DNA of 33,468 nt from Desulfobacterium sp. Its GTDB lineage: Bacteria; Desulfobacterota; Desulfobacteria; Desulfobacterales; Desulfobacteraceae. Position numbers and translations under genes: made by a program. Below are positions 2,888 to 24,784 of this stretch, in pieces. Within the stretch, counting starts at the first letter, position 1. Every line of letters starts with the position of its first letter. The notes beneath the pieces were generated by a model that ran no database searches, was not told the origin of the DNA, and saw nothing but the letters and a program-made list of their open reading frames with translations. Location: contig JAEINR010000067.1 of NCBI GenBank assembly GCA_016342325.1, positions 1 through 33,468 of the forward strand, written 5' to 3'.

Positions 2888-4846
2888 ATGATGTGTTTTT
2901 CAAAACAAACGATGTGTGGATTTCTTTTTCTTTTTTCAATTGTTGTCTTCGCCGGTTGTGGCTCGTCAGGTGATGCGCCATCAGACACTACGGATTCTAC
3001 AGGTACAGACACATCCTTTACCAGTACGGTGGAACTCCTTGACGGGACAGGGGGCGCCATAAGAACCATCAGTGAAGGCAATCCCGGAACGCTCAAAGTC
3101 ACCGTGACGACCAAGTCCGGGGCAGCAGCTGTAGACCAGTTTTTAACTGTGACCACGTCCAAGGGATCCTTCTTAAATTCCGATGGCACTGCCATGACAA
3201 ATGCCAGTGGCGTTGCCGAGTTCACCCTTATTGCCGATGGCGCCAACGGTGCCGGAACCATTGATGTAGCCGTTGGCGATTCTACCCTTGATACCCCGTT
3301 TGCATTTCAGATCGGGGCACCTGAGAGCGTAAAACTCGGCGCCTTTGTTAACGGCAGTTTCCAGGAGGGGATTTTGTTGTCCTCCATTGCCACCGGGGAA
3401 AAGCTGTCCATTGGCGGAACCGCAACCATCACGGCCGCACTGGCCATTTTGGACGGCTCGGCCTATGTGCCCTATACCCAATCGGTTGATATCTCATTTT
3501 CTACTCTTTGCGCAACTGCGGTTGTGGACCAGACCGTTTCCACTGAGAACGGGATTGCGACAACCACATATCGTGGTGTTGGCTGCACCTCGGGAGCTGA
3601 CACCGTCACTGCCACTGCAAGCATTGCCGGATCAAGTCTGTCCGCCTCAACGGACCTGTCACTGGCAACGCCTGAGGTGGGTTCCATCACCTTTGACTCT
3701 GCCGTGCCTGAACGTTTGGCCCTTGCCGGAACGTCCAACACGCAATTTCCGACAATTTCGATCATTACCTTTACGGTTAAGGATGAAGTGGGGAACCCTG
3801 TGCCCAATGAGCTTGTCAACTTTTCCTTGTCACCACAGCAGGGTAGCATCTCCCTTTCTCCTTCCAGTGCCGAGACAAATTCAGCTGGGCAGGTGCTTGT
3901 AACCATCAGCTCAGGAAATGTACCTACCTCGGTGAGGGTCAGGGCAACGGTGAACGACTCCCAGATATCAACGGTTTCAAGCAATCTTGTTATTAGCACG
4001 GGGCTTGCCGATCAAAACAGTTTTTCAATTAGTGCAACCCCATTTAATCCGGAGGGTTGGAACATTGATGGGGTTACCGTGGCTGTGACCGTGAGGGCCG
4101 CCGACCATTTTAACAATCCCGTTCCCGATGGAACCAGTATCTACTTTACCACCGAAGGCGGGGTGATCGATCCCACCTGCTCAACGGTGAACGGTGCATG
4201 TTCGGTCGAATGGCGAAGCCAGGATCCCAGGCCAGGGAATGGTCGGGTGACTATCCTTGCCACGGCACTGGGTGAGGAGTCCTTTATCGACGCCAACGGC
4301 AGTGGTCGCTATGAGTCAAGCGCGGATATCCTTGGCGATGATATGGATGAAGCCTTTGTTGATGCCGATGAAGATGGGATCCGAGATGTTGATGAAGAGT
4401 TCATGGATTACAACAAAGATCTTCTGTTTACAGAAAAAAATGGAATGTACAACGGTACCCTGTGCGTAACAGGATGCTCTGAGGAGTTGATCCATGTTCG
4501 GGAATCCATTGTGCTGTCAATGTCCTCAAGTTGGGCAGCGATTACCATAAATCCCTCAACAATCACATTGAACGGGCTTGTTTCGGTTTTCCTGACCATT
4601 GCCGACATCAATGGCAATTCAATGCCCGGCGGAACAGCGGTGGCCTTGACTGCGCCTGCCAATGCAACCATTGAGGGGGAGAGCTCATTTGAAATTATAA
4701 ATACAACCACCTTTCCGAGTGTTTTCTCTTTTGCTTTGAAACCGGACGGTACCTCTGATCCCGGGACCACAAGTACGCTACAGGTGAAGGTGACCTCCCC
4801 AAGTGGCGCGATTACCACCGGGTCTGCTCTCTGCATAACACCATAG
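2888..4846 (+). CDS. Ig-like (invasin/Big_1-type) lipoprotein downstream of pilQ
   Basis: The 652-residue protein has a signal peptide with lipobox VFAGC (Cys about 24) followed by a Gly/Ser/Asp-rich linker, so it is probably an outer-membrane or surface lipoprotein. The rest consists of repeated beta-rich Ig-like modules of the bacterial group 1 type (roughly 45-145, 265-370, 375-465 and 545-650), recognisable by the recurring pattern of a 'V.D..GNPVP' strand followed by 'T...G.A' strands. An acidic insertion near residues 465-510 contains DANGSGRYE and DADEDGIRD, which resemble calcium-binding loops. ATG 2888 is preceded by AAGGA at 2876-2880. It lies 73 bp after pilQ on the same strand. 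A role in adhesion or pilus-associated surface structure is inferred, not shown. Confidence 0.8.
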   Translation: MMCFSKQTMCGFLFLFSIVVFAGCGSSGDAPSDTTDSTGTDTSFTSTVELLDGTGGAIRTISEGNPGTLKVTVTTKSGAAAVDQFLTVTTSKGSFLNSDGTAMTNASGVAEFTLIADGANGAGTIDVAVGDSTLDTPFAFQIGAPESVKLGAFVNGSFQEGILLSSIATGEKLSIGGTATITAALAILDGSAYVPYTQSVDISFSTLCATAVVDQTVSTENGIATTTYRGVGCTSGADTVTATASIAGSSLSASTDLSLATPEVGSITFDSAVPERLALAGTSNTQFPTISIITFTVKDEVGNPVPNELVNFSLSPQQGSISLSPSSAETNSAGQVLVTISSGNVPTSVRVRATVNDSQISTVSSNLVISTGLADQNSFSISATPFNPEGWNIDGVTVAVTVRAADHFNNPVPDGTSIYFTTEGGVIDPTCSTVNGACSVEWRSQDPRPGNGRVTILATALGEESFIDANGSGRYESSADILGDDMDEAFVDADEDGIRDVDEEFMDYNKDLLFTEKNGMYNGTLCVTGCSEELIHVRESIVLSMSSSWAAITINPSTITLNGLVSVFLTIADINGNSMPGGTAVALTAPANATIEGESSFEIINTTTFPSVFSFALKPDGTSDPGTTSTLQVKVTSPSGAITTGSALCITP

Positions 4847-13081: not shown

Positions 13082-13459
13082 GTGGATCTTATAACAAAAC
13101 AGGGGTTTGATTTCAGTTTCGATCCCAAGGCATGTGAACTGTGTAGCAGTCGCTGCTGCAGGGGTGCTTCCGGCAATATATGGGTTACCCGCCTGGATAT
13201 TGACGCGATTTGCGAGTCGTTGAACCTCAATGTGATTGACGGCATGGACCGCTACTTTAAACGGGTCGGGAACCGTTTCTCCATCAAGGAAATCGTTTCA
13301 GGGGACGACTATCTCTGTGTGTTTCTGGACCCCGGGCAAGGGTGCTTGATCTACGGTGCCAGACCGGTTCAATGCAGGACCTTTCCATTCTGGAACCACT
13401 TTCGAACCCATCCCGAAGAGCTGTCGAACCAGTGTCCCGGGATCAACGTGGCTGTTTGA
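13082..13459 (+). CDS. YkgJ-family cysteine cluster protein
   Basis: The protein is about 125 residues when started at GTG 13082, which has AGAAGAG (13068-13074) at 7-bp spacing. A TTG at 13049 is in frame but overlaps no good ribosome site. It shows the family's Cys signature: CELCSSRCCRG (CX2CX3CC) near residue 18, then CLIYGARPVQCRTFPFW and a final CPG. These Cys are thought to bind a metal or Fe-S cluster; the biochemical role of the family is not established. It lies 33 bp after the DedA-type gene and is probably in its operon. The repeat at 13464 begins directly after its stop. Confidence 0.85.
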   Translation: MDLITKQGFDFSFDPKACELCSSRCCRGASGNIWVTRLDIDAICESLNLNVIDGMDRYFKRVGNRFSIKEIVSGDDYLCVFLDPGQGCLIYGARPVQCRTFPFWNHFRTHPEELSNQCPGINVAV

Positions 13460-13463
13460 TGTT

Positions 13464-13503
13464 TTTGCCAAAATAACACGAAAATCCGTGTTAGGAAGCT
13501 AAA
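13464..13503 (+). repeat. Single copy of the dispersed 40-bp repeat unit, forming a hairpin
   Basis: The segment beginning TTTGCCAAAATAACACG and ending GGAAGCTAAA matches the 40-bp unit seen at 24.5 kb and 22.4 kb. This copy alone contains a perfect 7-bp inverted repeat, TAACACG (13474-13480) and CGTGTTA (13487-13493), with a 6-nt loop. It lies between convergent genes and overlaps the LysR stop codon (13491-13493). The hairpin could help terminate transcription from either side, but it has no long T-run. Confidence 0.8.
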
Positions 13504-14390
13504 TACTTCTCTTTGATGAACTTGATAAAGGTCTTGGAAAGCGGGGACAGGGTGCGCTTCCCATGGGTGGTGATGTAGAAGCTTCGCCTTAGATCGAGCC
13601 CCTTGACCGACAGAGCCTTGAGCCGGCCCGATTCCAAAAGGTCGGCCACGGCAATGGTTGAGAGGATGGAGATGCCGGCATTGGCCAGGACGGCCTGGAT
13701 CACCGAGGCGGTGTTGCCCATGGTGGCAATGATGTTCAGCCTTTCTGTGTTAAAACCTGCGGTTTCCATGCTTTTTGTGATGGATCGCCAGGTGCCTGAG
13801 CCCTGCTCCCTGGCCAGAAAGGGCTCGCTGAACAGCATGGAACATTCCACCTGGTCGCGGTCTGCCCATTTATGGGATGCGGGAACGATCAGCTTCATCT
13901 CGTCGTCCACCAGCTTCTCCTGGTTGACCAGGGGGCTGTCTACCCTGGCCCCGACGATTCCCACCTCGATCTCTCCCTGGGTGACTTGATCGATGATCTC
14001 AGCTGTGTCTCCGGCCACAAGGGAGATGGACACCTCGGAAAACGCCTTGGCCAGGGGGGCGATCATCTTGGGCAGGATATAGCCGGAGGGGATGGTGCTG
14101 CCCCCGACCTTCAGGTGGCCCCGGAGTTTGCCCTGGAAATCGGAGATGGCCGATTCCGCTTCGTCCCGAAGGAGGAGCAGCTTTTTTGCATAGGAGAAAA
14201 GGAGCTCCCCGGCTTTTGTGGGAACGGTCTCCCTGCCGAGGCGGTCCATGAGCCGACACCCAAAATGCTCTTCAAGCTCCTTGATGTGGCTGCTAACGGT
14301 TGGTTGGGAAAGGTGGATGGCCTCTGCGGCCTTGGAAAAGCTTCGTTTCTCAACCACACTGGTAAACACTTTCAGCTGCCACAGGTCCAT
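13491..14390 (-). CDS. LysR-family transcriptional regulator (CysB-like; selenium-metabolism-associated type?)
   Basis: The 299-residue regulator has an N-terminal winged HTH (about 1-60, with FSKAAEAIHLSQPTVSSHIK) and a LysR substrate-binding domain (about 90-295, GHLKVGGSTIPSGYILPKM onward). The start MDLWQLKVF and the effector-domain sequence resemble a LysR group annotated as associated with selenium metabolism in anaerobic bacteria; I recall this resemblance and have not tested it. It is the last gene of the lpxC-to-lysR run, with 2 bp between the coaD stop and its ATG. Its last codons (Leu-Ala-Ser-stop) lie inside the dispersed repeat unit. Confidence 0.85.
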   Translation of the reverse strand: MDLWQLKVFTSVVEKRSFSKAAEAIHLSQPTVSSHIKELEEHFGCRLMDRLGRETVPTKAGELLFSYAKKLLLLRDEAESAISDFQGKLRGHLKVGGSTIPSGYILPKMIAPLAKAFSEVSISLVAGDTAEIIDQVTQGEIEVGIVGARVDSPLVNQEKLVDDEMKLIVPASHKWADRDQVECSMLFSEPFLAREQGSGTWRSITKSMETAGFNTERLNIIATMGNTASVIQAVLANAGISILSTIAVADLLESGRLKALSVKGLDLRRSFYITTHGKRTLSPLSKTFIKFIKEKYLAS

Positions 14391-14392
14391 GG

Positions 14393-14896
14393 TTAATTCT
14401 CTTTTTTGGCTGGAAATTTTTCCAGCATCTTGAGCTTGATCGGTTGGGGAACCATTCCGGTGATGTCACCGCCAAAGGTTGCCACCTCCTTGATGATGGA
14501 GGAGCTTGTGAAGATCCACCTTAATCCGGTCATGAGAAAGATGGTCTGGACATCCCGGTTGAGTCGACGGTTCATCAATGCCATCTGGAATTCGTTTTCA
14601 AAATCTGAAATGGCCCGCATGCCCCTGATGATGGCAACGGCATTTTTTATCCGGGTGTAGTCCACCAGGAGGCCGTCAAAACTGTCCACTTCAAGGTTGG
14701 CTTTTTTTCCAATGCTTGCCTGGATCATATCGACCCGTTCCTGGACGGAAAAGAGTGAATTCTTTTTGGGATTGTACATCACCGATACAATCACCTTGTC
14801 AAAGATTTTCAGCGCCCGTTCGATGATGTCCACGTGGCCGTTGGTCAGCGGATCAAAGGATCCGGGGTAGATCGCTATTTTTGGGTTGTTTTCCAT
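14393..14896 (-). CDS. coaD: Phosphopantetheine adenylyltransferase
   Basis: This enzyme transfers AMP from ATP to 4'-phosphopantetheine, giving dephospho-CoA, the penultimate step of coenzyme A synthesis. The 167-residue length is typical. The nucleotidyltransferase motif AIYPGSFDPLTNGH is at the N-terminus (residues 8-21), and the second ATP-contact motif WIFTSSSIIKEVA lies near residues 126-138, matching the family's 'SSS..KE' motif. It starts 6 bp after rsmD, a pairing that is common in bacteria, and is followed after 2 bp by the LysR gene. Confidence 0.95.
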   Translation of the reverse strand: MENNPKIAIYPGSFDPLTNGHVDIIERALKIFDKVIVSVMYNPKKNSLFSVQERVDMIQASIGKKANLEVDSFDGLLVDYTRIKNAVAIIRGMRAISDFENEFQMALMNRRLNRDVQTIFLMTGLRWIFTSSSIIKEVATFGGDITGMVPQPIKLKMLEKFPAKKEN

Positions 14897-14902
14897 GAAA
14901 TG

Positions 14903-15472
14903 TTAATCCCTTTCACAAGACAGGTTCAGTGTTAAAAAGCTAATCCGTGTCTTTCCGTATTTCCTTTGATCGCGAATGTCAAGTATTGATGTCGATTGTA
15001 TGGGGTTTTCCCTGGCAGATTGTTCCGCAATGATGAGGGCATGATCGGCCAAAAGGCCGATAAATGCACCTGAACCCAGCACGGTGTCGATGAGTCCCCG
15101 GTCATAGGGGGGGTCCATGAAAACCAGGTCGAATTTCTGTTGGACGGCCCAGGCGGGAAGAACTTGTTGGGTGATGTCGTGGCAGAGAACGGTTGCCGGG
15201 TCTTCAAGCCGGCACAGGGAGATGTTCTCTTTTATGATGGCGCAGGCATCCTGGCTTTTGTCCACAAACAGGGCGGACGCGGCGTTGCGGCTCAAGGCCT
15301 CCATGCCCAGGGCCCCGGTTCCGGCAAACAGGTCAAGCACCCTGGCGCCTTCAACTTCCCGGGAGATGATGTTGAAGACCGACTCCCTGACCCGGTCCGA
15401 TGTGGGCCGGGTGTCCAATCCCCTGGGGGTGACAAGTTTTCTGCCCTTGCAGGTTCCGCTGATGATTCTCAT
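14903..15472 (-). CDS. rsmD: 16S rRNA (guanine(966)-N(2))-methyltransferase RsmD
   Basis: This SAM-dependent enzyme methylates G966 of 16S rRNA. From ATG 15472 (MRIISGTCKGRKLVTP, the conserved family start) the product is 189 residues, the normal length. It contains TRPTSDRVRESVFNI, the SAM-binding motif VLDLFAGTGALGMEAL and the catalytic FMDPPYD (NPPY-like). An in-frame GTG at 15529 is the last three bases of a strong AGGAGGTG sequence and so is unlikely to be the start it serves; nothing well spaced follows that sequence. It is located between ntrX and coaD in the same run. Confidence 0.93.
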   Translation of the reverse strand: MRIISGTCKGRKLVTPRGLDTRPTSDRVRESVFNIISREVEGARVLDLFAGTGALGMEALSRNAASALFVDKSQDACAIIKENISLCRLEDPATVLCHDITQQVLPAWAVQQKFDLVFMDPPYDRGLIDTVLGSGAFIGLLADHALIIAEQSARENPIQSTSILDIRDQRKYGKTRISFLTLNLSCERD

Positions 15473-15547
15473 AGGATTCGTCCCGATCCCCGGTTGCTCA
15501 AAGGTTGCCGGGTCGATATGCGCTCGCACCTCCTGATTCTTTCCATG

Positions 15548-16900
15548 CTATTTGTCCCGAACCCTGGCTGCAAGGTCACTGGGATCCACACCGATCTTGG
15601 CGGCTGCGGTCTCAAGTTCTCCCTTGGCTTCCGCCAGTTTCTTTTTGAAAAATTCCTGCTCAAACCTTTTTTTGGCTTTCTCCCAATCGTCCATGGAGAA
15701 AAGATCGGCCTGTCTGTCTTCGGTGTCGTCAGCGGTTTCCGGGTTGTAGGGCTCTGGAATGTCCCGGACCTGGATGGTTTCGTGTTCCACCATGATGGCG
15801 AGTCTTTCGATGAGGTTCTTCAGCTCCCGGACGTTGCCCGGCCAATCATAGCCGGCGATGAGATCCAGGGCCTGCTTGTCCATGCCCACGGGACCCCCTG
15901 CTTTTTCCTGGGAAGCGGTCTTGAGAAAGATATCCACGAGCAGGGGAATATCCTCTTTGCGGTTACGCAGGGCAGGCACGGCCACGGGAATCACGTTGAG
16001 CCGGTAGAACAGATCTTCCCGGAAGTTGCCGGCTGCGATTTCGGCTTTAAGGTCTTTGTTGGTGGCTGCGATGATCCTCAGATCCACGCTCAGGGTACGT
16101 CCACCCCCGATCCGCTGGAAGGTCTTTGATTCAAGGGCGCGCAAAATTTTTGCCTGGGTCTTGAGATTCATGTCGCCGATCTCGTCCAGGAACAGGGTGC
16201 CACCGGAGGCCAGCTCGAATTTGCCCTTGTTCTTTGCCGCGGCCTCGGGAAAGGCGCCCTTTTCATGTCCGAACAGCTCGCTGTCAATGGTCTCTTCGGG
16301 AATTGCTGCGCAGTTGACGATGATGAACGGTTCTTCCGGCCGGGAACTGAACTGGTGAAGCGTCCTTGCCACGAGCTCTTTTCCGGTTCCGTGCTCTCCT
16401 GTGATGAGGATGGAGGCGTTGGAGGGGGCGGCATTCATGATCTCTTTGTTGAGCTCCTGTACCGCCGGGCTGAACCCGTTGATGGAGTGCTTCTCAATTG
16501 TCTTTCTTCGAAGATAGAGGTTCTCCTCCTCAAGGCGCCGGAAGTTGAGGGCGTTGTTGATGGTCACGATGACCCTGTCAATGGACAGGGGTTTCTCGAG
16601 AAAATCAAAGGCCCCGGATTTTGTCGCGTCCACGGCCGATTCAATGGTGCCGTGGCCTGTGATCATCACCACAGGCAGGTTTGGAAAAAGTTTTTTAATC
16701 TCCTTGAGCGTCTCAATGCCGTCCATTCCCGGCATCCAGATGTCCAGAAGCACGATGTCCGGAGATTCCGCCTCGATTTTTTTCAGGGCTTCATAGCCGT
16801 TGAAGGCGTGGGAGACTTCAAACCCGTCATCCGAAAGAATGCCTTCCAAGGATTCGATGATGGATGCTTCATCATCAACGATTAATACTGCTGGATACAT
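15548..16900 (-). CDS. ntrX: NtrX-like sigma-54-type response regulator with altered GAFTGA loop
   Basis: The 450-residue regulator has a receiver domain (about 1-120; acidic pocket Asp9/Asp10, phosphoacceptor Asp53, Lys in FLEKPL), an AAA+ domain (about 140-370) and a short C-terminal segment. Walker A is GEHGTGKE (about 168) and Walker B is GGTLFLDEIGDM. The sigma-54 contact loop, normally GAFTGA, reads GAFPEA (16241-16258, residues about 215-220), and the C-terminal HTH is a poor match to Fis-type helices (TAAAKIGVDPSDLAARV). It lies 12 bp after ntrY, its presumed kinase. NtrX proteins control nitrogen, redox or envelope genes in other bacteria; the target here is unknown. Altered loop residues suggest weak or absent sigma-54 activation. 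Confidence 0.88.
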   Translation of the reverse strand: MYPAVLIVDDEASIIESLEGILSDDGFEVSHAFNGYEALKKIEAESPDIVLLDIWMPGMDGIETLKEIKKLFPNLPVVMITGHGTIESAVDATKSGAFDFLEKPLSIDRVIVTINNALNFRRLEEENLYLRRKTIEKHSINGFSPAVQELNKEIMNAAPSNASILITGEHGTGKELVARTLHQFSSRPEEPFIIVNCAAIPEETIDSELFGHEKGAFPEAAAKNKGKFELASGGTLFLDEIGDMNLKTQAKILRALESKTFQRIGGGRTLSVDLRIIAATNKDLKAEIAAGNFREDLFYRLNVIPVAVPALRNRKEDIPLLVDIFLKTASQEKAGGPVGMDKQALDLIAGYDWPGNVRELKNLIERLAIMVEHETIQVRDIPEPYNPETADDTEDRQADLFSMDDWEKAKKRFEQEFFKKKLAEAKGELETAAAKIGVDPSDLAARVRDK

Positions 16901-16912
16901 GTTCTCTCCTGT

Positions 16913-19144
16913 TTATGCCGGAAGCTCGATGATGAATCGGGCTCCCGTTGGTTTGTTGTCTTGCACCCTTATCATTCCCTTGTGATCGGTAATGATGGAG
17001 TTCACGATGGCAAGGCCCAGGCCGATGCCGGATTTCTTGGTGGAGAAGTAGGGCTCAAACAGCCGGGTCTTCTCCTCGTCTGAGATTCCCTTTCCATTGT
17101 CGGCAATCTCCACCCGGACAATCTTCAGGATCGGGTCAAAGGAGATGTCGATGGTGATGGTGCCCTGTTTGTTGATGGCGGCCACCGCGTTGTCAAACAG
17201 GTTGATGAATGCCTGCTTCATCTGCTGTCGGTCCAGGTTGATCTCCGGAAGGGCGCGGGCAATTGTTGTTATAATTTCGACGTTTTCAAGGCCCTCCTGG
17301 TAGAGGGCGGCGGTTTCGTCGAGGATTTTCTCGATTCTGCATGGCTGGGCGTTGGTATCCGGAAACTTGGCAAAGGTGGCGAATTCATTGACCAGGTTGC
17401 GGATCAGGTCCACATGGACCACGATCATCTCCGTGCACTTGTCAAACACTTCTTCGTTGATGATTTTGGAGTATCTGCGCTTGAGACGCTGGGCCGACAG
17501 TTTGATGGGGGTGAGGGGGTTTTTTACCTCATGGGCGATTCTTCTGGCCACTTCCCGCCAGGCCGCCACGCGCTGGGCCTTTTCAAGTTCGGTCAGGTCG
17601 TTAAACACCATCACCACCCCGATGTTTTCACCGGTGTCGCTCTTCAGGGCGTTGAAGTGGACGGCAAAGTGCCTGGGGCTGCCGTTGATGGTAACCGACA
17701 GGGGAAACTCCACATTGTCCGATGCAAAGGAGACGGTGTCGGCAATCTTTTGGGCGATGGCCAGGTGATCCGCCCGGATGATCTCCTTGAAGTTACGGTT
17801 CAAGGTCTCCCCGGCCTTGATGTCAAGCATGGTTTCGGCCGCCTTGTTGATGGTGGTGATGGTGCCCGTGCTTGACAGGGATATCACCCCGGCAGAAATG
17901 TTCCGAAGTACGATTTCCATGTATTGCCGGCTTTTTTCGATCTCGATGTTCTGCTGGCGCATGGTCTTTTCTGAGCTGGCAAGTTTTTCCCGGCCCAGGG
18001 CCAGCTGCTTTGTCATGGAGTTGAACGAGTCCACCAGGGTCCCAAGTTCGTCGTCCGACTGGAAATCGATCTGGTAGTTGAGGTCCCCCTGGGTCACCCG
18101 CTGGGTGCCCTCGGCGAACTTCATCAAGGGAATGGTGAGGGACTTTGCCAGGTAAAAACCGAACCACACGGCACAGAAGATCACAAGAAGAGCCACAATG
18201 GAGAGGGCGATGTAGTTGGAGATCTGAACCGGTCGTTTGATCATCTTGAGCTGCTGGTACTCTTCGGCCCCCCTGGAGATGGAGGCCAGATCCTGGGACA
18301 GATCCGAAGAGATAAGCGCAGTGATCACCAGGAACGCCTGCCTTTTGTCCGGGGAGGCGCCAAAGGGGATGGTGGTGATGGTTCGTATGGTTTCTCCATC
18401 ATCGATGATTTCGGACAGGGTCCTTGAGGTCTCGCCCGCTGGAATCTTCATGAGATCGTCTCCGGTGAGGATCCCGAAATAGCTGTTTTTAAGCTCCTTT
18501 GCCAGGGAAAGGGTAGTTCTCCTTGCATCAGGGGTGTACACCTCGACCCCGTGGAGATTGAAGGCCCTCTGGACCACCTGGGCATACCGGCTCAGCTCCT
18601 TGTTTTTCTCCGGGGCCAGAAGTTCTCTGGAGTGGATCTGGAATGCCGCCCGTTTTGCAAAAAACAGGTTCTTGTCCTCAACATAGTTATAGAGCTTTCG
18701 CCCGACAGAGAGGGAGTTGTCAAGGGCCTGTTCCACCGGGGCGTTGAACCAGAAGGCAATGGAGGTGTTGATGAAGTGGATGGAGAAAAAGAACAGTACG
18801 GTGGTCGGTACAAGGGCCAGGGTGACAAAGGCGGCCACAAGCCGGGTCTTGAGCTTTGTGCCGAGGATACCGCTTTTCTTCTCATAGTAAAGCTTTGCAA
18901 GGTTTCGGAACACAAGAAGAATGAGGGCGAGGAGCAGCAGGAGGTTGGTGTTTATCAGGATGAACATCAACACCGTGTTGGACACGGGGAAGTTGGTCCC
19001 GAACCCGGTGATCTTTGTCTCGGCATAGGTGAGCAGCCCTACGATCACCAGGATGGCCAGGATCAGGGCGCCCTCTCGCTTTCGTCTTGACCGTTCCAAG
19101 TCAAGGGGGTTGGAACGGCTGCTGTTATTTTGTCTTTTTACCAT
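16913..19144 (-). CDS. ntrY: NtrY-like membrane sensor histidine kinase
   Basis: From ATG 19144 the kinase has 743 residues. Transmembrane helices occur near 25-50, 58-85 and 100-130, then a periplasmic sensor region, another helix near 310-335, a HAMP domain (about 335-390), a PAS domain (about 410-510), HisKA with H-box REVARRIAHEVKNPLTP (His about 538) and a HATPase domain with N-box FINLFDNAV, DNGKGI, FEPYFSTK and GIGLGLAIV. This order is that of NtrY. The frame extends to a TTG at 19192, but that would overlap the DUF4390 gene, so the ATG is preferred. It is 20 bp after the DUF4390 gene and 12 bp before ntrX. The signal sensed is not known. Confidence 0.92.
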   Translation of the reverse strand: MVKRQNNSSRSNPLDLERSRRKREGALILAILVIVGLLTYAETKITGFGTNFPVSNTVLMFILINTNLLLLLALILLVFRNLAKLYYEKKSGILGTKLKTRLVAAFVTLALVPTTVLFFFSIHFINTSIAFWFNAPVEQALDNSLSVGRKLYNYVEDKNLFFAKRAAFQIHSRELLAPEKNKELSRYAQVVQRAFNLHGVEVYTPDARRTTLSLAKELKNSYFGILTGDDLMKIPAGETSRTLSEIIDDGETIRTITTIPFGASPDKRQAFLVITALISSDLSQDLASISRGAEEYQQLKMIKRPVQISNYIALSIVALLVIFCAVWFGFYLAKSLTIPLMKFAEGTQRVTQGDLNYQIDFQSDDELGTLVDSFNSMTKQLALGREKLASSEKTMRQQNIEIEKSRQYMEIVLRNISAGVISLSSTGTITTINKAAETMLDIKAGETLNRNFKEIIRADHLAIAQKIADTVSFASDNVEFPLSVTINGSPRHFAVHFNALKSDTGENIGVVMVFNDLTELEKAQRVAAWREVARRIAHEVKNPLTPIKLSAQRLKRRYSKIINEEVFDKCTEMIVVHVDLIRNLVNEFATFAKFPDTNAQPCRIEKILDETAALYQEGLENVEIITTIARALPEINLDRQQMKQAFINLFDNAVAAINKQGTITIDISFDPILKIVRVEIADNGKGISDEEKTRLFEPYFSTKKSGIGLGLAIVNSIITDHKGMIRVQDNKPTGARFIIELPA

Positions 19145-19164
19145 TGTCGTTGGGCAGGGGACGC

Positions 19165-19740
19165 TTAATAAATAAAATCCATTGTGTGCCAATCTGTTTC
19201 AAAGTCCCACATGGAGACGAAAAAAAGGATGTAGTGAAGGTACAGGGGAAGGGTGACTCTGCTCAGTTCCGCCTTGAACCTGATCTGGTATTTTTCTCCT
19301 TTTGTGAGGGTGGACAGGGGGGTGACCCCGAGGTTGTCGACCTCTATCATCATGGCCTTTGCCTGGTCAAAAGAGGAAGTGACCGAGGGTTTGTCCGTTT
19401 TCCATGGTCTGTAGACGGTGAACTCCTGTTTCAGGCTGTTGTACTTAAGCGTGCTCACGATTTCAAGGTTACGGATTTTTTTGTCGAACCAGGCATCCCG
19501 GGTCTTGTAGACAGAGACAACAAAGGAGAACGAGGTGGGCACCCCGTTGAGGACGGCTTCTTTGATTTCGGTGGTGAAGGCGTTTTCCACATCAAAGTAG
19601 ACCACCAGGTCGTCCCGGGTGTTTGTGAGGATGATGTTCTCAAGGGACGCCTCCGGAGCCGCCAGGGCTGCAAAGGGGATCAGGGCCATCACAACAAGGA
19701 GTGCTCCGGCAATGAGCTTTTTTCCGAGCAGCGATTTCAT
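19165..19740 (-). CDS. DUF4390 secreted protein preceding ntrY
   Basis: The 191-residue protein has a signal peptide (hydrophobic about 9-27, cleavage after ALA) and a beta-rich domain containing ENIILTNTRDDLVVYFDVEN, typical of DUF4390. The family is found next to NtrY-type kinases in many proteobacteria, and a periplasmic location fits a partner of the kinase's sensor domain, but that is inference. Its start overlaps the lpxC stop by 4 bp, and the ntrY start follows by 20 bp. The C-terminus has a hydrophobic patch (LPLYLHYILFFVSMW) that may be a membrane anchor. Confidence 0.8.
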   Translation of the reverse strand: MKSLLGKKLIAGALLVVMALIPFAALAAPEASLENIILTNTRDDLVVYFDVENAFTTEIKEAVLNGVPTSFSFVVSVYKTRDAWFDKKIRNLEIVSTLKYNSLKQEFTVYRPWKTDKPSVTSSFDQAKAMMIEVDNLGVTPLSTLTKGEKYQIRFKAELSRVTLPLYLHYILFFVSMWDFETDWHTMDFIY

Positions 19741-20624
19741 AGGGAGGTGTCATCTCCTATCGGTACCGTTCGGGTTTCCCAGGCATCCTTTGTGGAAAGG
19801 AGGTGCTGGATGAAGGCGTGGTTCAGGGCATGGCCGGATTTAAAGGTCGTGATATGGCCCTGTATGGGCATACCGAGCAGGGAAAAGTCCCCCAGGCTGT
19901 CCAGGAGCTTGTGCCTTACAAACTCGTCCGGATGTCTGAGACCGCCCTGGTTGAGTATTTTGTCTTTGTCGATGACAATGGCCGTGTCAAGGCTGCCTCC
20001 CCTGCCCAGGCTGAATCTTTTCAGGTACTCAATGTCCTGGATGAAACCGAATGTCCTTGCCTGGCTGATCTTCTCCTTGAAACTCTCCTGCAGGGGATCA
20101 AACGAGATCTCTTGCCGGCCGATGAGGGGGTGGTCAAAATCGATGGTGCAGGCGATGTTGAATCCCTTGCCCGGAACGATCTCAACAAATTTATCCTGTT
20201 CGGAAAATCTGACGGGCTTGGTCATCACAAAGTACCACCTGGGGGCGGTCTGTTCTACTAGGCCTGCATTGGTGAGTGCTTGGGCGAATTCCTTTGCGCT
20301 GCCGTCCATGATGGGCATCTCATAGCCGTCGATCTCCACCAGGGCATTGTCGATGGAGAGACCGGAAAATGCGGCCATGAGGTGTTCAATGGTGGATACA
20401 ATGGCGCCTTCTTTGCCGATTACCGTTGCAAGACTCGTATCGACAACGGTCTTGAACAGCGCCGGGATGTCCTGGGTGCCGGGAAGATCCACCCGCCGGA
20501 ATCGGATGCCGTGGTTTTCCGGGGCCGGTTTGATGACGATGCTGGTCTGTTTTCCGGAGTGGACACCGATGCCTGCGCATTTGACGGGTCTGGCCAGGGT
20601 TTGTTGTAGGTAAAAGTCTGTCAT
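19737..20624 (-). CDS. lpxC: UDP-3-O-acyl-N-acetylglucosamine deacetylase
   Basis: This zinc enzyme catalyses the first committed step of lipid A synthesis, removing the N-acetyl group of UDP-3-O-acyl-GlcNAc. The 295-residue length is standard. The expected metal and catalytic motifs are present: STIEHLMAAF (Glu80, His81), the HKLLDSLGDFSLLG motif (His and Asp, zinc ligands) and GHALNHAF near residue 265. It is the first gene of the minus-strand run ending in the LysR gene. It shows that the organism makes lipopolysaccharide and links envelope synthesis to the NtrYX genes downstream through a 4-bp overlap with the DUF4390 gene. Confidence 0.97.
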   Translation of the reverse strand: MTDFYLQQTLARPVKCAGIGVHSGKQTSIVIKPAPENHGIRFRRVDLPGTQDIPALFKTVVDTSLATVIGKEGAIVSTIEHLMAAFSGLSIDNALVEIDGYEMPIMDGSAKEFAQALTNAGLVEQTAPRWYFVMTKPVRFSEQDKFVEIVPGKGFNIACTIDFDHPLIGRQEISFDPLQESFKEKISQARTFGFIQDIEYLKRFSLGRGGSLDTAIVIDKDKILNQGGLRHPDEFVRHKLLDSLGDFSLLGMPIQGHITTFKSGHALNHAFIQHLLSTKDAWETRTVPIGDDTSL

Positions 20625-20752
20625 GGTTATTTCGTTGGTCTGCCTTTATTTTCAGGCCGGGTACGACCCCGGAAGCGTTGTTATCTATTGATGTAGTCTA
20701 TATCTGATTTTGTTCAGGAAGGCAAAATAATTGAGAAAATTCTTTACTGCAA

Positions 20753-20782
20753 TTGTTATTTTTAGATGGCGCATGCTATACT
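20753..20782 (+). promoter_or_regulatory. Predicted extended -10 promoter for the comM-like gene
   Basis: TTGTTA (20753-20758) and TATACT (20777-20782) are 18 bp apart, and the -10 is preceded by TGC (extended -10). A start near 20789 would leave a leader of about 35 nt before the TTG at 20824. Confidence 0.5.
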
Positions 20783-20823
20783 GCTTTTCATCTGTTTGGT
20801 GAATCGATATAAGGAGAATCTCT

Positions 20824-22359
20824 TTGCTTGCAAGGACCAAGAGTGCTGCCGTTGCCGGAATCGATGCCTATATCGTCGAGGTCGAGGTGGATATCTCGTT
20901 TGGGCTTCCTGTGTTCAACATCGTGGGACTGCCGGAGACCGCAGTTCGGGAGAGCCGGGAGCGGGTGAAGAGTGCTGTGAAAAATTCCGGATATAAATTC
21001 CCCGTGGACAGGATTGTCGTGAACCTTGCCCCTGCCGCCATTAAAAAAGAGGGGACAAGCCTTGATCTGCCCGTTGCCATGGGGATTCTGCTGGCCTCCC
21101 AGATCCTTCCCCTGGATTGCGGCGCATCGTTTCTGATGCTAGGAGAACTCTCCCTTGACGGCAGGGTAAAGCCGGTTCCCGGTGTCCTTTCCGCCACACT
21201 TGCTGCAAAAACGGGCGGGTTCAAGGGGATTATCGTGCCCTTTGGAAACCGGGTTGAGGCCTCCATTGTGGAAGGTGTGGAGGTGATTGCCGCCAAGACC
21301 CTGTCCGAGGTGGTCGCGTTTTTGTCCGGGAGTCGGACCATCGAGCCCGTAAAAAAGGATGCCTCTTTTTTCGAGGGGGACGTGTCGTCCCAGGGGGGCG
21401 TTGATTTTTTTGAGGTCATGGGGCAAAGCCATGCCAAGAGGGCCATGGAGGTTGCTGCGGCCGGCGGTCACAATCTTCTCATGACGGGTGTGCCCGGTTC
21501 CGGAAAAACCATGCTGGCCAAACGCCTGCCCTCGATCCTTCCAACGCTTACCATTGACGAGGCCCTGGAAACCACCCAGATCTATTCGGTGACAGGCCTT
21601 TTAGAGGAGGCTTCCCCCATCGTCAGGGAGCGGCCCTTCAGGTCTCCCCACCACACCATTTCCGATGCAGGGCTTGTGGGCGGAGGGCAGCGGCCCGAAC
21701 CCGGTGAGGTGAGTCTTGCCCATAACGGCGTCTTGTTCATGGACGAGCTTCCCGAATTCAAGCGAAACGTGCTCGAAGCGTTGCGGCAGCCCATGGAAGA
21801 TGGGGTGGTCTCCATCTGCCGGGCCGGTTTCAGGGTGTGCTATCCTGCCTCGTTCATGCTGGTGGCCGCCATGAATCCATGTGCCTGCGGTTATGCCGGG
21901 GATCGTCTCAAGGAGTGCACCTGCTCCGCCGCCCAGGTCAGGCGCTACCGGGCACGGATTTCAGGCCCCCTGCTTGACAGAATCGATATTCATGTCGATG
22001 TTCCCCAGGTGCCTTTTAAAGAGCTGTCCCAATCGACCCGACCCGAGGCCTCCTTGGGTGTGAGAAAGCGGGTCGAGGGGGCAAGAAAGCGCCAGGTAAA
22101 ACGGTTTCAGGGGGCAGGAATCCACTGTAATGCCCAGATGGGGCCAACGCATATCAAGGCGTTCGCGTCCCTGGATAAGGAGGCTGTGGCATTGATTGCC
22201 AGGGCCGTTGATGCATTTGGCATGTCTGCACGGGGACATGGGCGGGCGGTGAAAATCGCCAGAACCATTGCCGATATAGAAGAGGAGCCCCGGGTGCTTC
22301 ATCGCCATGTTGCAGAGGCTATCCAGTACCGGAGCCTTGATAGAATAGACACCCTGTGA
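20824..22359 (+). CDS. comM: ComM/YifB-family Mg-chelatase-like AAA+ ATPase
   Basis: The 511-residue AAA+ protein starts at a TTG with AAGGAG at 20811-20816 (7-bp spacing), which fixes this unusual start. The N-terminal domain (LARTKSAAVAGIDAYIVEVEV) is the ChlI-like subdomain. The ATPase domain has Walker A GVPGSGKTM (about 222-230) and Walker B GVLFMDELPEF, and the C-terminal Mg-chelatase domain contains RYRARISGPLLDRIDIHVDVP. ComM is a hexameric helicase that drives branch migration during natural transformation. It need not mean that this cell is competent, since the family is widespread. It is divergent from lpxC; hslO follows after the inverted repeat copy. Confidence 0.93.
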   Translation: MLARTKSAAVAGIDAYIVEVEVDISFGLPVFNIVGLPETAVRESRERVKSAVKNSGYKFPVDRIVVNLAPAAIKKEGTSLDLPVAMGILLASQILPLDCGASFLMLGELSLDGRVKPVPGVLSATLAAKTGGFKGIIVPFGNRVEASIVEGVEVIAAKTLSEVVAFLSGSRTIEPVKKDASFFEGDVSSQGGVDFFEVMGQSHAKRAMEVAAAGGHNLLMTGVPGSGKTMLAKRLPSILPTLTIDEALETTQIYSVTGLLEEASPIVRERPFRSPHHTISDAGLVGGGQRPEPGEVSLAHNGVLFMDELPEFKRNVLEALRQPMEDGVVSICRAGFRVCYPASFMLVAAMNPCACGYAGDRLKECTCSAAQVRRYRARISGPLLDRIDIHVDVPQVPFKELSQSTRPEASLGVRKRVEGARKRQVKRFQGAGIHCNAQMGPTHIKAFASLDKEAVALIARAVDAFGMSARGHGRAVKIARTIADIEEEPRVLHRHVAEAIQYRSLDRIDTL

Positions 22360-22378
22360 ACGCTTTATCCCTTTGAGT

Positions 22379-22457
22379 GTTTGTTTCTTAGCTCTGATTT
22401 TTGTGTTATTTTGGCAAGACAATCAGATAACCTCTTTGGTTCTGGCTTGTCCAGGTT
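22379..22457 (-). repeat. Composite dispersed repeat, inverted copy
   Basis: Read on the minus strand, 22457-22419 (beginning AACCTGGACAAGCC) and 22418-22379 (beginning CTTGCCAAAATAACAC, ending TCAGAGCTAAGAA and a few bases) match the composite at 24629-24708 over about 80 bp, with roughly ten differences and a one-base indel. It lies between the comM stop and the hslO start. The open frame through it (towards an apparent start at 22381) is repeat-derived and supports a later hslO start. Confidence 0.88.
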
Positions 22458-22497
22458 GGGGGGGTATGGGAATAATAACGAATCGTGGGCCGAGCCC

Positions 22498-23448
22498 ATG
22501 ACCATGGAAAAGAAGAATCAGAAAATGATTAAAAAAGATATATTCGAGGGCAGCATCAAGGACCAGCTCAGGGCTTCGGCCCAGGACAGGCTCTATCGCT
22601 TTATGATGGCCGACGGCATGATCCGGGGCGCTGTTGTAAAGAGCACCCGGATGATCAACGAGATGCGTGCAAATCATCAACTGGGGGGGGTCGAGACCCT
22701 GGTCCTGGGGCAGGCCTATATTGCCGGGGCTCTTTTGACGGCAAACCTCAAGGCCAAGGACCGGGTCAGCATCAACATCCAGTGTTCAGGCCCCCTCAAG
22801 GGACTTGATGTGGAAGCCAATGTTTTTGGCGAGGTGCGGGGATTCCTGAAAAATCCTATTTTTTCCACAGAGGGCAATCAGGAGGCCACCACACTGTCAC
22901 CTTTTTTCGGTGCGGGTTTCCTCACGGTCACAAAATACCTGGAAGAGGCCAGACAACCCTATGCCGGCCAGGTGGTGCTTGAATACGGCAGCATTGCCGA
23001 GGACCTTGCCAATTACTTTTTAACCAGCGAGCAGACCCCCTCGGCTTTTAACCTGAGCGTTCACTTCAACTCCAGGGGAGATGTGATCGGTGCAGGGGGG
23101 CTCTTTCTCCAGGCAATGCCCGGCGTCGAAGAGGGTGTCCTGGATGATGCCCAGGAGATGCTCCGGAAGATCCCTTCCCTGGGCGAGGCGTTTGCCGACA
23201 CCGTGGAACCCGAAGCCATCGTTAAGGAGCAGTTCCATAGCCTTATGCCCGTTTTCCTGGGAAACCACCGGGTGGAATTCTTCTGCCGCTGTACCGAGGA
23301 AGCCATGCGCGGCCACCTTGCAAGCCTTCCCCAGGATGACCTGGTTGAGATCCGTGGGAATGGTCCCTTTCCCGTGGAGCTCAGGTGCCATAATTGTAAC
23401 ACCGTCTACAACTTTACCAAGAGTGACATTGAGACGATGATAAGATGA
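22498..23448 (+). CDS. hslO: Redox-regulated chaperone Hsp33
   Basis: Hsp33 is a cytoplasmic holdase activated by oxidation, when its zinc-bound cysteines form disulfides. The product, about 316 residues, contains the core from DRLYRFMMADGMIRGAVV to the C-terminal redox switch: CRC (CXC, about 261-263), then CHNC (CXXC, about 296-299). The frame runs upstream to 22381, but that part is repeat-derived and lacks homology, so ATG 22498 (or 22504, 22525) is chosen; none has a strong ribosome site. The stop overlaps the metallophosphoesterase start by 4 bp. A stress chaperone that responds to oxygen fits an anaerobe. Confidence 0.92.
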   Translation: MTMEKKNQKMIKKDIFEGSIKDQLRASAQDRLYRFMMADGMIRGAVVKSTRMINEMRANHQLGGVETLVLGQAYIAGALLTANLKAKDRVSINIQCSGPLKGLDVEANVFGEVRGFLKNPIFSTEGNQEATTLSPFFGAGFLTVTKYLEEARQPYAGQVVLEYGSIAEDLANYFLTSEQTPSAFNLSVHFNSRGDVIGAGGLFLQAMPGVEEGVLDDAQEMLRKIPSLGEAFADTVEPEAIVKEQFHSLMPVFLGNHRVEFFCRCTEEAMRGHLASLPQDDLVEIRGNGPFPVELRCHNCNTVYNFTKSDIETMIR

Positions 23449-24197
23449 GACTGGCTGTTGTCTCGGACATCCACAGCAACCTGGAGGCCCTTGAGGCTGT
23501 GCTTTGGGACACCAAAAACCTTGGGATCGATACGGTCGTCTCCCTTGGGGACAACATCGGCTATGGCGCCGATCCCGAGGCCGTTATTCGGCTGCTGGGG
23601 CAACATAAGGTCGAATCCGTGATCGGGAATCATGAGCTTGCCCTGCTGGAACCGACCTATCTTGAGGCCTTTCATCCCCCTGCCAGGCAGGCGCTCTTGA
23701 TAAATAAGCGCCTTCTTTCACAGAAGAGCCTTGCACACATCCGCAGCTTTCAGATCTCGCTGGTTCGCCAGGGGTGCTTGTTTGTCCACGGCCTTCCCCC
23801 GGATTCGGTGACCACCTATCTGTCGCGAACATCCGACAAAAAACTGGGACTGATCATGGCCCATATGGACCAACAGATCTCCTTTGTGGGACACACCCAC
23901 CAATTGGAGGTCGTAAGGCTTGACCGGGGCAGGGTGACCCGGTCGAAAATCGAAAAAAAAGTTCTATTCCTTGACAAAGGGAGCAGATATATTATCAATG
24001 CAGGAAGCGTTGGACAGCCGAGGAAGTCAACCCTTGATGCCAAGTACCTTGTTTTTGACCCTGACCTGTACTGTGTCGAACCAAGGGTTGTGGGCTATGA
24101 CAGGGCGTCTGCCGCAAAAAAAATTAGAAAGGCGGGTATTCCGGAAGGATTTGCCCTGCAATTAGTGCAACCGTCAAACCAAGAGAGGTCATTGTAA
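23445..24197 (+). CDS. Calcineurin-like metallophosphoesterase (YfcE/diadenosine-type)
   Basis: The 250-residue protein has all the metal-binding motifs of the metallophosphatase fold: SDIHSNLEAL at the N-terminus, GDNIGYG (about 36), GNHE (about 62), a HGLPP region near 115, and GHTH (about 148). The SLGDNIGYGADP pattern is typical of the MJ0936/YfcE-like phosphodiesterases. The substrate cannot be read from sequence. It overlaps hslO by 4 bp (ATGA), and a single base separates its stop from the small Cys/His-rich gene. Confidence 0.88.
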   Translation: MRLAVVSDIHSNLEALEAVLWDTKNLGIDTVVSLGDNIGYGADPEAVIRLLGQHKVESVIGNHELALLEPTYLEAFHPPARQALLINKRLLSQKSLAHIRSFQISLVRQGCLFVHGLPPDSVTTYLSRTSDKKLGLIMAHMDQQISFVGHTHQLEVVRLDRGRVTRSKIEKKVLFLDKGSRYIINAGSVGQPRKSTLDAKYLVFDPDLYCVEPRVVGYDRASAAKKIRKAGIPEGFALQLVQPSNQERSL

Positions 24198-24198
24198 A

Positions 24199-24510
24199 AT
24201 GTGTAATACCTGTAATGAACATGAGCATAGTCACCACCACCATAACCATCCCGAAATCGTCCAGATCATGCCTGCCCAGAAGGATCTATATGCCGTATAC
24301 CAGGCCGCAACCCCCATGGATCATGCCGTCATGCAGAGCGACGCTGGTTTAAGCCTTGTTCCTGTTCTTTTTCTCGGGTTGATGAAGCATGGAGACAAGA
24401 CCATGGTTGAAGGCTTTTTCGCCTCCAAGGCCATCAACTCCTGCGAAGATGTTGACGGTTTCAAGGGGTATGCCTCCTCCATGGACGAGGCTGAAAAGCT
24501 ATACGCTTAA
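24199..24510 (+). CDS. Small Cys/His-rich protein, family not recognised
   Basis: This 103-residue protein starts MCNTCNEHEHSHHHHNHPE, with a CXXC motif and eight histidines in its first 20 residues, a likely metal-binding site. The rest is a soluble alpha/beta segment with no motif I recognise (KDLYAVYQAATPMDHAVMQ to MDEAEKLYA). ATG 24199 has GAGAGG at its 5' side, inside the end of the metallophosphoesterase gene, and is probably translated with it. The last codons (Ala-stop, GCTTAA) coincide with the start of the repeat array, so the C-terminus may have been set by repeat insertion. No function is assigned. Confidence 0.7.
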   Translation: MCNTCNEHEHSHHHHNHPEIVQIMPAQKDLYAVYQAATPMDHAVMQSDAGLSLVPVLFLGLMKHGDKTMVEGFFASKAINSCEDVDGFKGYASSMDEAEKLYA

Positions 24511-24511
24511 C

Positions 24512-24631
24512 CTTGCCAAAATAACACGGGAATTAAAGCAAAGAGCTTAACCTGGCCAAAATAACACGGGAATCAAAGCAAAGAGCTTAACCTGGCCAAA
24601 ATAACACGGAAATCAAAGCAAAAAACTTAAC
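24512..24631 (+). repeat. Three tandem 40-bp repeat units downstream of the small Cys/His-rich gene
   Basis: Units at 24512-24551, 24552-24591 and 24592-24631 (beginning CTTGCC or CTGGCC, then AAAATAACACG, ending CTTAAC) differ from each other at only a few positions. The preceding GCTTAAC (24505-24511) looks like the tail of a further unit, and contains the gene's TAA. Immediately downstream is the composite copy at 24629-24708. Confidence 0.92.
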
Positions 24632-24708
24632 CTGGACAAGCCGGAACCAAAAGAATAAATCTGATGCGCTTGCCAAAATAATGCGAAAATCAGAGCTAAG
24701 AAGCTAAC
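24629..24708 (+). repeat. Composite dispersed repeat, direct copy
   Basis: The first half (24629-24668, starting AACCTGGACAAGCCGGAACC) and the second (24669-24708, CTTGCCAAAATAATGCG to AAGAAGCTAAC) match the inverted copy at 22379-22457. The second half is the same 40-bp unit as the tandem array (about 75% identical to its first unit). The composite ends about 35 bp before an in-frame ATG at 24743 and 76 bp before the preferred iorA start. Confidence 0.88.
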
Positions 24709-24784
24709 ATCTGCTTTTCTCTTCTTTGCAGCCGGAAGCGGTATGTTAAGGCTGTTACAAACACAGGAAAAGGATATTTATTGT

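Follow-up and report, generated by a model that had tools for sequence, protein, structure and literature searches.

The window analyzed here, a 33,468-nucleotide stretch of Desulfobacterium sp. DNA (contig JAEINR010000067.1, positions 1 to 33,468 of the forward strand), contains several copies of a repeat of about 80 bp that is composed of two modules, A and B. We propose that this repeat is a non-autonomous miniature transposon (MITE) of an insertion sequence (IS) of ~1.9 kb, which quite probably moves by single-strand transposition with the aid of a TBP-fold, Rep_trans-like tyrosine endonuclease. Computed support for this proposal comes from shared ends, a target preference, the presence and absence of copies between species, covarying left-end stems, the predicted fold of the transposase, and the spacing of its catalytic motifs.

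The repeat is dispersed throughout the genome (G000), whose 205 contigs add up to 6.67 Mb. With at most two mismatches, the B core GCCAAAATAACRCGRAAATC occurs at 150 sites and the A module AACCTGGACAAGCCRGAACC at 181, compared with 0 and 1 sites for the respective reversed control patterns, a copy number far above chance; the sites are evenly divided between the strands (73/77 for B and 94/87 for A). The original prediction had described a dispersed family on the basis of three loci in the window, and these counts, 150 to 181 sites, bear it out; the copy positions that it gave for the window also held on re-examination. A first search scored 40 of 268 candidates, and 37 stretches were fetched around its matches; they were picked by resemblance to window positions 24500-24720, so that the sample is biased towards full copies, a bias that counts against our interpretation. 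A repeat profile gave 55 matches in these stretches and the window, 49 of them near full length. The full unit measures ~77–81 bp and reads A then B, (CYTA)ACCTGGACAAGCCAGAACCAAA...TCTGATTCTCTTGCCAAAATAACRCGAAAATCAGAGCTAAGAAGCTA, which agrees with the two-module description in the original prediction; A is the left end and B the right end. In 33 strictly full matches, the trinucleotide preceding ACC is CTA 14 times, TTA 9 times, ATA 3 times, CCA and CTG twice each, and three others once each. Head-to-tail copies were seen in three of the stretches (L009, L010, and L034), and a search of the window against Rfam at gathering score returned 0 matches.

The origin of the repeat became apparent from its relatives. 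Module A was found at up to one mismatch in 10 of the 38 genomes searched, with 123 matches in G000, 32 in G001, 19 in G004, 13 in G003, 6 in G002, 5 in G013, 4 in G018, and 1 each in G011, G020, and G036. On the 5,589,073-bp chromosome of the congener G002, which we take to be Desulfobacterium autotrophicum HRM2, the A and B ends bound a 1905-bp element with a single open reading frame, for a protein of 506 residues. The encoded transposase is present in five copies with 100% identical protein sequences, and all five elements are 1905 bp long and preceded by CCTA. Two of the five interrupt genes, in that joining the flanks at CCTA restores the reading frame: one restored frame contains DGIPPKKAIKKYLEY, in what is presumably an amidotransferase-like gene, and the other contains LTGIPNRQYFNEYF, which we take to be a GGDEF-type motif. 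A family consensus of A, typed from the family rather than taken from the copy at 24630, is identical to the left end of the element at locus L116 at 32 of 33 positions, and the typed consensus of B is identical to its right end in 43 of 52 columns. Because the same two ends bound a single-gene IS in the congener, the 80-bp repeat appears to be a MITE of this 1905-bp element. It is short, non-coding, and multi-copy, and has its ends in common with an autonomous element, as expected of MITEs; because the two ends are different sequences in the aligned copies, without terminal inverted repeats, it would qualify as a MITE in the broad sense only.

Comparison with G001, covering one intergenic stretch and one gene end, indicates that copies occupy different sites in the two species. 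The window copy at 22379-22456 is absent from the orthologous G001 gap, whose flanks align, the exact joint being blurred by divergence. Likewise, a tandem array in the window is absent at the orthologous stop codon in G001, which reads CCTAACACC without insertion, and ahead of the next gene G001 carries a copy of its own, oppositely oriented, that has no counterpart in G000. Positions are thus not conserved between these relatives at the places compared, and the miniature mobile element that the original prediction had listed among possible roles is supported by sites that are filled in one species and empty in the other, as well as by the ends held in common with the congener IS. A comparison of L057 from G002 with L026 from G000 offered no aligned empty site and was uninformative. 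Searches for the transposase gave no match in G000, G001, or G004. In G004, at least 13 of the 19 A-module matches lie ~70–93 bases from a contig end, and the contig-end matches that were fetched run into the ribosome-binding-site-like sequence AAAGGAGGT, a pattern expected of a multi-copy element that breaks the assembly; such breaks are perhaps also why no transposase was found there. A fragment in G018 (L072) matches only transposase residues 476-504 and may be a degrading intermediate on the way from an IS to a MITE.

The placement of the repeats was examined for 51 matches with E ≤ 1e-8 in the fetched stretches, using home-made gene calls. Forty-seven lie between genes, in gaps that are tandem (27), convergent (11), or divergent (9); of the other four, 2 lie in a called gene and 2 at the edge of a stretch. 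Gaps of at least 60 bp in the same stretches number 48 tandem, 15 convergent, and 29 divergent. The intergenic share of 47/51, where only ~15% of the sequence is non-coding, together with the failure to find a helper in this genome, could point to repeats that are retained as regulatory, nucleoid-binding, or mRNA-end elements after an ancient mobility. We regard this as most improbable: copies in tandem gaps show no orientation bias (13 along the gene direction, 14 opposite), sites differ between the congeners at the places compared, and selection against gene hits already predicts an intergenic bias. The protein-binding and mRNA-end roles suggested in the original prediction found no support in what was tested. 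The intergenic placement is what one would expect if copies insert and those that hit genes are then selected against.

The transposase belongs to a widespread family. A four-member profile, run against 395 genomes drawn from the phylum, matches 26 of them, and a scan of genome contigs yielded 236 stretches, 196 of which encode a relative; 80 of these 196 loci were kept for study. According to the titles of the records, mostly metagenome-assembled genomes (MAGs), the family occurs in Desulfobacterota, Acidobacteriota, Bacteroidota, Chloroflexota, Planctomycetota, Nitrospirota, Bacillota, Actinomycetota, Pseudomonadota, and others, with several copies per genome in Lachnospiraceae bacterium A4, Anaerolineales H5_CFX5, and a Rhodocyclaceae MAG. 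Eight plasmid records match, in which the protein is annotated as hypothetical (five), as an ArsR-family regulator (one), or not at all (two). One plasmid, from Mycobacterium riyadhense, carries two adjacent, diverged family members (L114, 2447-5867). No relative was found in a phage collection, and a single one among 82 stretches of viral contigs.

The structure alignments drew on 56 of the 80 loci, after removal of additional copies within a genome, frames that were broken or truncated, a few loci whose starts were uncertain, and L159. Up to E 0.005, these 56 members match seven Pfam families, all of winged-helix or similar DNA-binding type, and neither the Y1 (PF01797) nor the Y2 HUH transposase model is among them; no NCBIfam match up to E 0.1 names a transposase or recombinase. 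A conserved HUH motif was not found either, as only H213 is nearly invariant in the His-x-His stretch of the L116 protein. A sequence search of the PDB with one family protein gave no match, and a profile search gave four with E 0.09-1.3, namely three winged-helix-type proteins and one ribosomal protein.

In the predicted structure, the transposase core (pLDDT 91.8) has the TBP-like crescent of the Rep_trans catalytic fold. With the core alone, the top Foldseek hit in the PDB is RepSTK1 (4cij), which initiates rolling-circle replication, belongs to Rep_trans, and contains a TBP-like sheet, and the VIA list includes 4cwe, 4cwc, and 4cij. The Rep_trans motifs used for comparison were N', I, III, and IV, i.e., D, RxD, YxKxxE, and W/LxRxE. 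The corresponding D19, QxE242, Y316xK, and R324xE326 are conserved in 54 to 56 of the 56 members; motif I differs in having Q for R and E for D, the Glu of YxKxxE is not established here, and motif II (T/SxY/ExG) is not kept in alignment columns 294-318, as judged by eye. Tyr316 is invariant among the aligned members. The transposase thus seems to keep most of the Rep_trans catalytic spacing, including the candidate nucleophile.

Several observations speak against this assignment. None of the 56 members matches the Rep_trans model PF02486 up to E 0.005, and an hhalign comparison of profiles reached at most 0.7%, i.e., no sequence homology. TM-scores to 4cij are low, TBP, which is not an enzyme, fares equally well or better than Rep in VIA, and unrelated proteins neighbor the Rep fold match. 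Tyr473 is as conserved as Tyr316, and there are further conserved tyrosines. Of the 50 PDB matches listed for the whole protein, none is Rep, and MarR-type winged helices and TBP stand out; Rep came up once the core was folded by itself. The likeness might be restricted to a common TBP-like sheet, with the 506-residue protein using another chemistry or another tyrosine. We consider this unlikely, because the top Foldseek hit of the core is Rep and not TBP, the corresponding catalytic residues are near-invariant, and the motif spacing was noted before the core-only fold search, though after TBP had appeared in the search with the whole model. A search of three congeneric genomes for Rep_trans proteins found none. 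Overall, this transposase of 506 residues, for which there is no family model, looks like the kind of enzyme that replicates rolling-circle plasmids, which as far as we found is not known to drive transposons.

Across four multi-copy groups, the sequence in common ends at the same points, with CCTA ahead of the left end and CTA at the right end (one of the five G002 loci, in the opposite orientation, was not usable in this comparison). A left-end pattern demanding CYTA is found at 63 of the 80 loci; when CYTA is not demanded and the best-fitting place is taken, CCTA precedes 54 of the 60 left ends placed in 61 loci, and the others follow CCCA (4), CTTA (1), or CCTG (1). Since CTA is present at both junctions, a duplication of 2–3 bp cannot be told from none, and the same CTA would also be expected of classical double-strand cut-and-paste with a short specific target duplication (TA or CTA). 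That mechanism is nevertheless highly unlikely given the lack of inverted terminal repeats, a left target that is CCTA rather than random, and the purely winged-helix Pfam matches and NCBIfam matches naming no transposase or recombinase described above; RNase H-like folds are absent among the fold matches listed for the core, which leaves them possible.

Left ends also have a conserved capacity to form stems. In a test anchored on flanking letters only, 65 of the 80 loci have an anchor and 55 a single one; all four pairs of the stem are present in 53 of these 55 loci and three pairs in the other two, compared with four pairs at 0.27% of anchors (~1 in 372) in shuffled upstream regions. The stems comprise 22 distinct sequences, in which pair 1 is CG, GC, or TA and pair 2 is CG or TA, with one mismatch each, so the left ends have the appearance of covarying hairpins that follow the CCTA target. 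Single-strand folding gives three hairpins, a right one included, in the window copy at 22379-22456 and a different fold for the full MITE at 24630. L116 and L163 show two left hairpins; on the right, L163 has a hairpin and L116 folds no better than shuffles (z 0.62). A right-end pattern fits 58 of 64 right ends and fails for 6. Integron attC sites, raised by the sequence CCTAAC, were dismissed because the right end is without GTTRRRY by eye.

Some loci have peculiar ends. The right end of L118 is followed by many head-to-tail copies of its terminal octamer CTAAGTAC (4019-4130), perhaps through misassembly or perhaps as a remnant of recurrent processing of the end. In L132 and L137, a second, inverted copy of the left-end sequence is found close to the left end and upstream of the gene, which suggests self-regulation or nested insertion. 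Four contigs (L117, L126, L130, and L178) begin at base 1 with the left end CCTAACCCGG, the kind of start that an assembly break at a multi-copy element would produce.

Because the candidate tyrosine lies in a Rep_trans-like setting, the left ends form hairpins, the last letters of the fixed left target recur on the right, and inverted repeats are lacking, we infer that the elements transpose as single strands, in the manner of IS200/IS605 or IS91, with the aid of a predicted non-HUH tyrosine endonuclease. A doubtful though possible variant is that the same enzyme drives an IS91-like, replicative rolling-circle transposition with one end as origin and the other as terminator. Rep_trans enzymes are indeed known for rolling-circle replication and conjugation, the MITE copy number is high, and the elements combine a fixed tetranucleotide target with a lack of terminal inverted repeats; IS91 itself has neither inverted nor direct repeats, according to the parts of PMC5714925 consulted. 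The presence of both ends in 49 of the 55 profile matches argues weakly against it, the sample having been chosen by resemblance to a full copy. We favor the IS200/IS605-like path because the ends form one short unit and the G002 joints look precise.

A model can be proposed on this basis. The MITE would consist of the left end (~33 bp) and the right end (~45 bp) of the ~1.9-kb IS, whose single protein of ~506 residues would combine a TBP-fold, Rep_trans-like core with a C-terminal winged helix. The transposase would fold the end hairpins on one DNA strand, with D19, E242, and E326 binding the metal, and Tyr316 would attack directly behind CCTA on the left and behind xCTA on the right, which would generate a 3'-OH and a 5'-phosphotyrosine. 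Strand transfer would then join the ends into a single-stranded circle and rejoin the donor, and the circle would insert after CCTA (CYTA) in a new single-stranded target, with no duplication beyond the shared CTA. The MITEs would be mobilized in trans; a transposase that could do so was not found in the assembly.

The copies in the window illustrate different states of the element. Copy 2 (22379..22456, - strand), identified by profile match and congener comparison, is a full 80-bp MITE between genes that we take to be ComM-like and Hsp33-like. The most elaborate locus starts with the target tetranucleotide CTTA (24506..24509, +), which overlaps the stop codon of the gene at 24199-24510 and is CCTA at the uninserted G001 site. 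The array begins inside this TAA stop with three 40-bp units (24510..24549, 24550..24589, and 24590..24629, all +) and is followed head to tail by a full MITE (24630..24706, +), CTTA being common to every junction. Within this MITE, module A (24630..24662, +) and module B (24663..24706, +), whose mutual limit is approximate, are the counterparts of the left and right ends of the autonomous element. In each 40-bp unit, B is joined to the tip of the left end, which consists of the opening bases of A (CTTAACCTKG). Because this junction occurs only at the three places in the array (3 genome sites at up to two mismatches), the 40-bp unit is a local deletion derivative rather than the founding unit for which the original prediction had taken it, the full unit being the 80-bp A-B composite. 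After an internal deletion, the array may have grown through successive insertions into the CTTA that closes it on the right, or through copying across that CTTA.

Copy 1 (13464..13501, +) is a degenerate MITE in which B is recognizable and the left-end module is not; the profile match extends over 13437-13501 (E 1.9e-11, model positions 12-77). It overlaps the 3' end of a LysR-type gene on the - strand (stop at 13491-13493), such that its right end provides the final codons and the stop of that gene (13491-13501). The statement that all copies are intergenic was thus nearly right, as the sampled placements indicate, apart from this overlap and the array that begins in a stop codon. Elsewhere in the window, a 24-bp tandem repeat of 4.4 copies (1-105) opens the contig from its very first base and may have been shortened by assembly; it lies within a called open frame, with a presumably PilQ-like gene downstream.

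How the new elements relate to known systems can now be considered. With the Rep_trans initiators and relaxases (PF02486; RepD/RepSTK1, Tn916, and ICEBs1), they share the predicted TBP-like catalytic fold, presumed hairpin DNA substrates, an Asp on the first strand, an acidic residue on the central strand, a Tyr between two basic residues, and R-x-E. They differ in that the transposase family has no sequence-level match and no motif II, has large insertions and a C-terminal winged helix, and is the sole gene of a multi-copy IS rather than part of a replicon or an integrative and conjugative element. IS200/IS605 elements, which are moved by Y1 HUH enzymes, have subterminal hairpins, no inverted repeats, a fixed short left target, a target-like right end, and short derivatives arising by internal deletion. 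The new elements resemble them in the lack of inverted repeats, the target-like right end, and the deletion derivatives, and probably also in the hairpins, which are clearer on the left than on the right, and in the left target, mostly CCTA; the new transposase is nonetheless ~506 residues long, with neither a conserved HUH motif nor a Y1_Tnp match and with a different predicted fold. REP/RAYT systems likewise consist of short, intergenic, hairpin-forming repeats tied to a single-strand-type nuclease, as is predicted here, but where REP palindromes measure 20-40 bp, the new unit is ~80 bp, asymmetric, and two-ended, and it is linked to a multi-copy IS instead of a single-copy Y1 gene.

Further comparisons draw on parts of PMC4797284, PMC13107129, and PMC5714925. 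The Y2 HUH elements IS91, ISCR, and Helitron resemble the new family in having a transposase akin to rolling-circle initiators and no inverted or direct repeats (PMC5714925), and differ from it in fold, predicted here to be non-HUH, and in the tyrosine pair, since no Y2-type pair was identified. The Rep-Arvir proteins (DUF7845), initiators of archaeal viruses and plasmids, are likewise reported (PMC13107129) to have a TBP-like fold that is related to Rep_trans only structurally, along with a winged helix and an origin that forms a hairpin. Unlike the new family, they are archaeal and replicative, with the Tyr in a different motif, and the parts of PMC13107129 consulted describe no transposition. 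In PMC5714925, as far as its consulted parts go, HUH enzymes are named as the single-strand transposases and Rep_trans enzymes appear only in replication and conjugation. We found no description of a Rep_trans-like or TBP-fold transposase among the top matches listed from the open-licence literature. On balance, we lean towards a new class of transposons, comprising IS and MITEs moved by a TBP-fold, metal-dependent, non-HUH tyrosine endonuclease of the Rep_trans superfamily, with hairpin ends at CCTA, that would be present in many bacterial phyla and hidden there behind hypothetical and ArsR-family proteins.

The MITE reading accounts for a high-copy repeat between genes whose function would otherwise be easy to misjudge, and the predicted Tyr316 makes the transposase reading directly testable. 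Transposases are classed by their catalytic chemistry. If the assignment is true, proteins now annotated as hypothetical or as regulators would receive a name, and a second, unrelated group of rolling-circle nickases would also have given rise to transposons.

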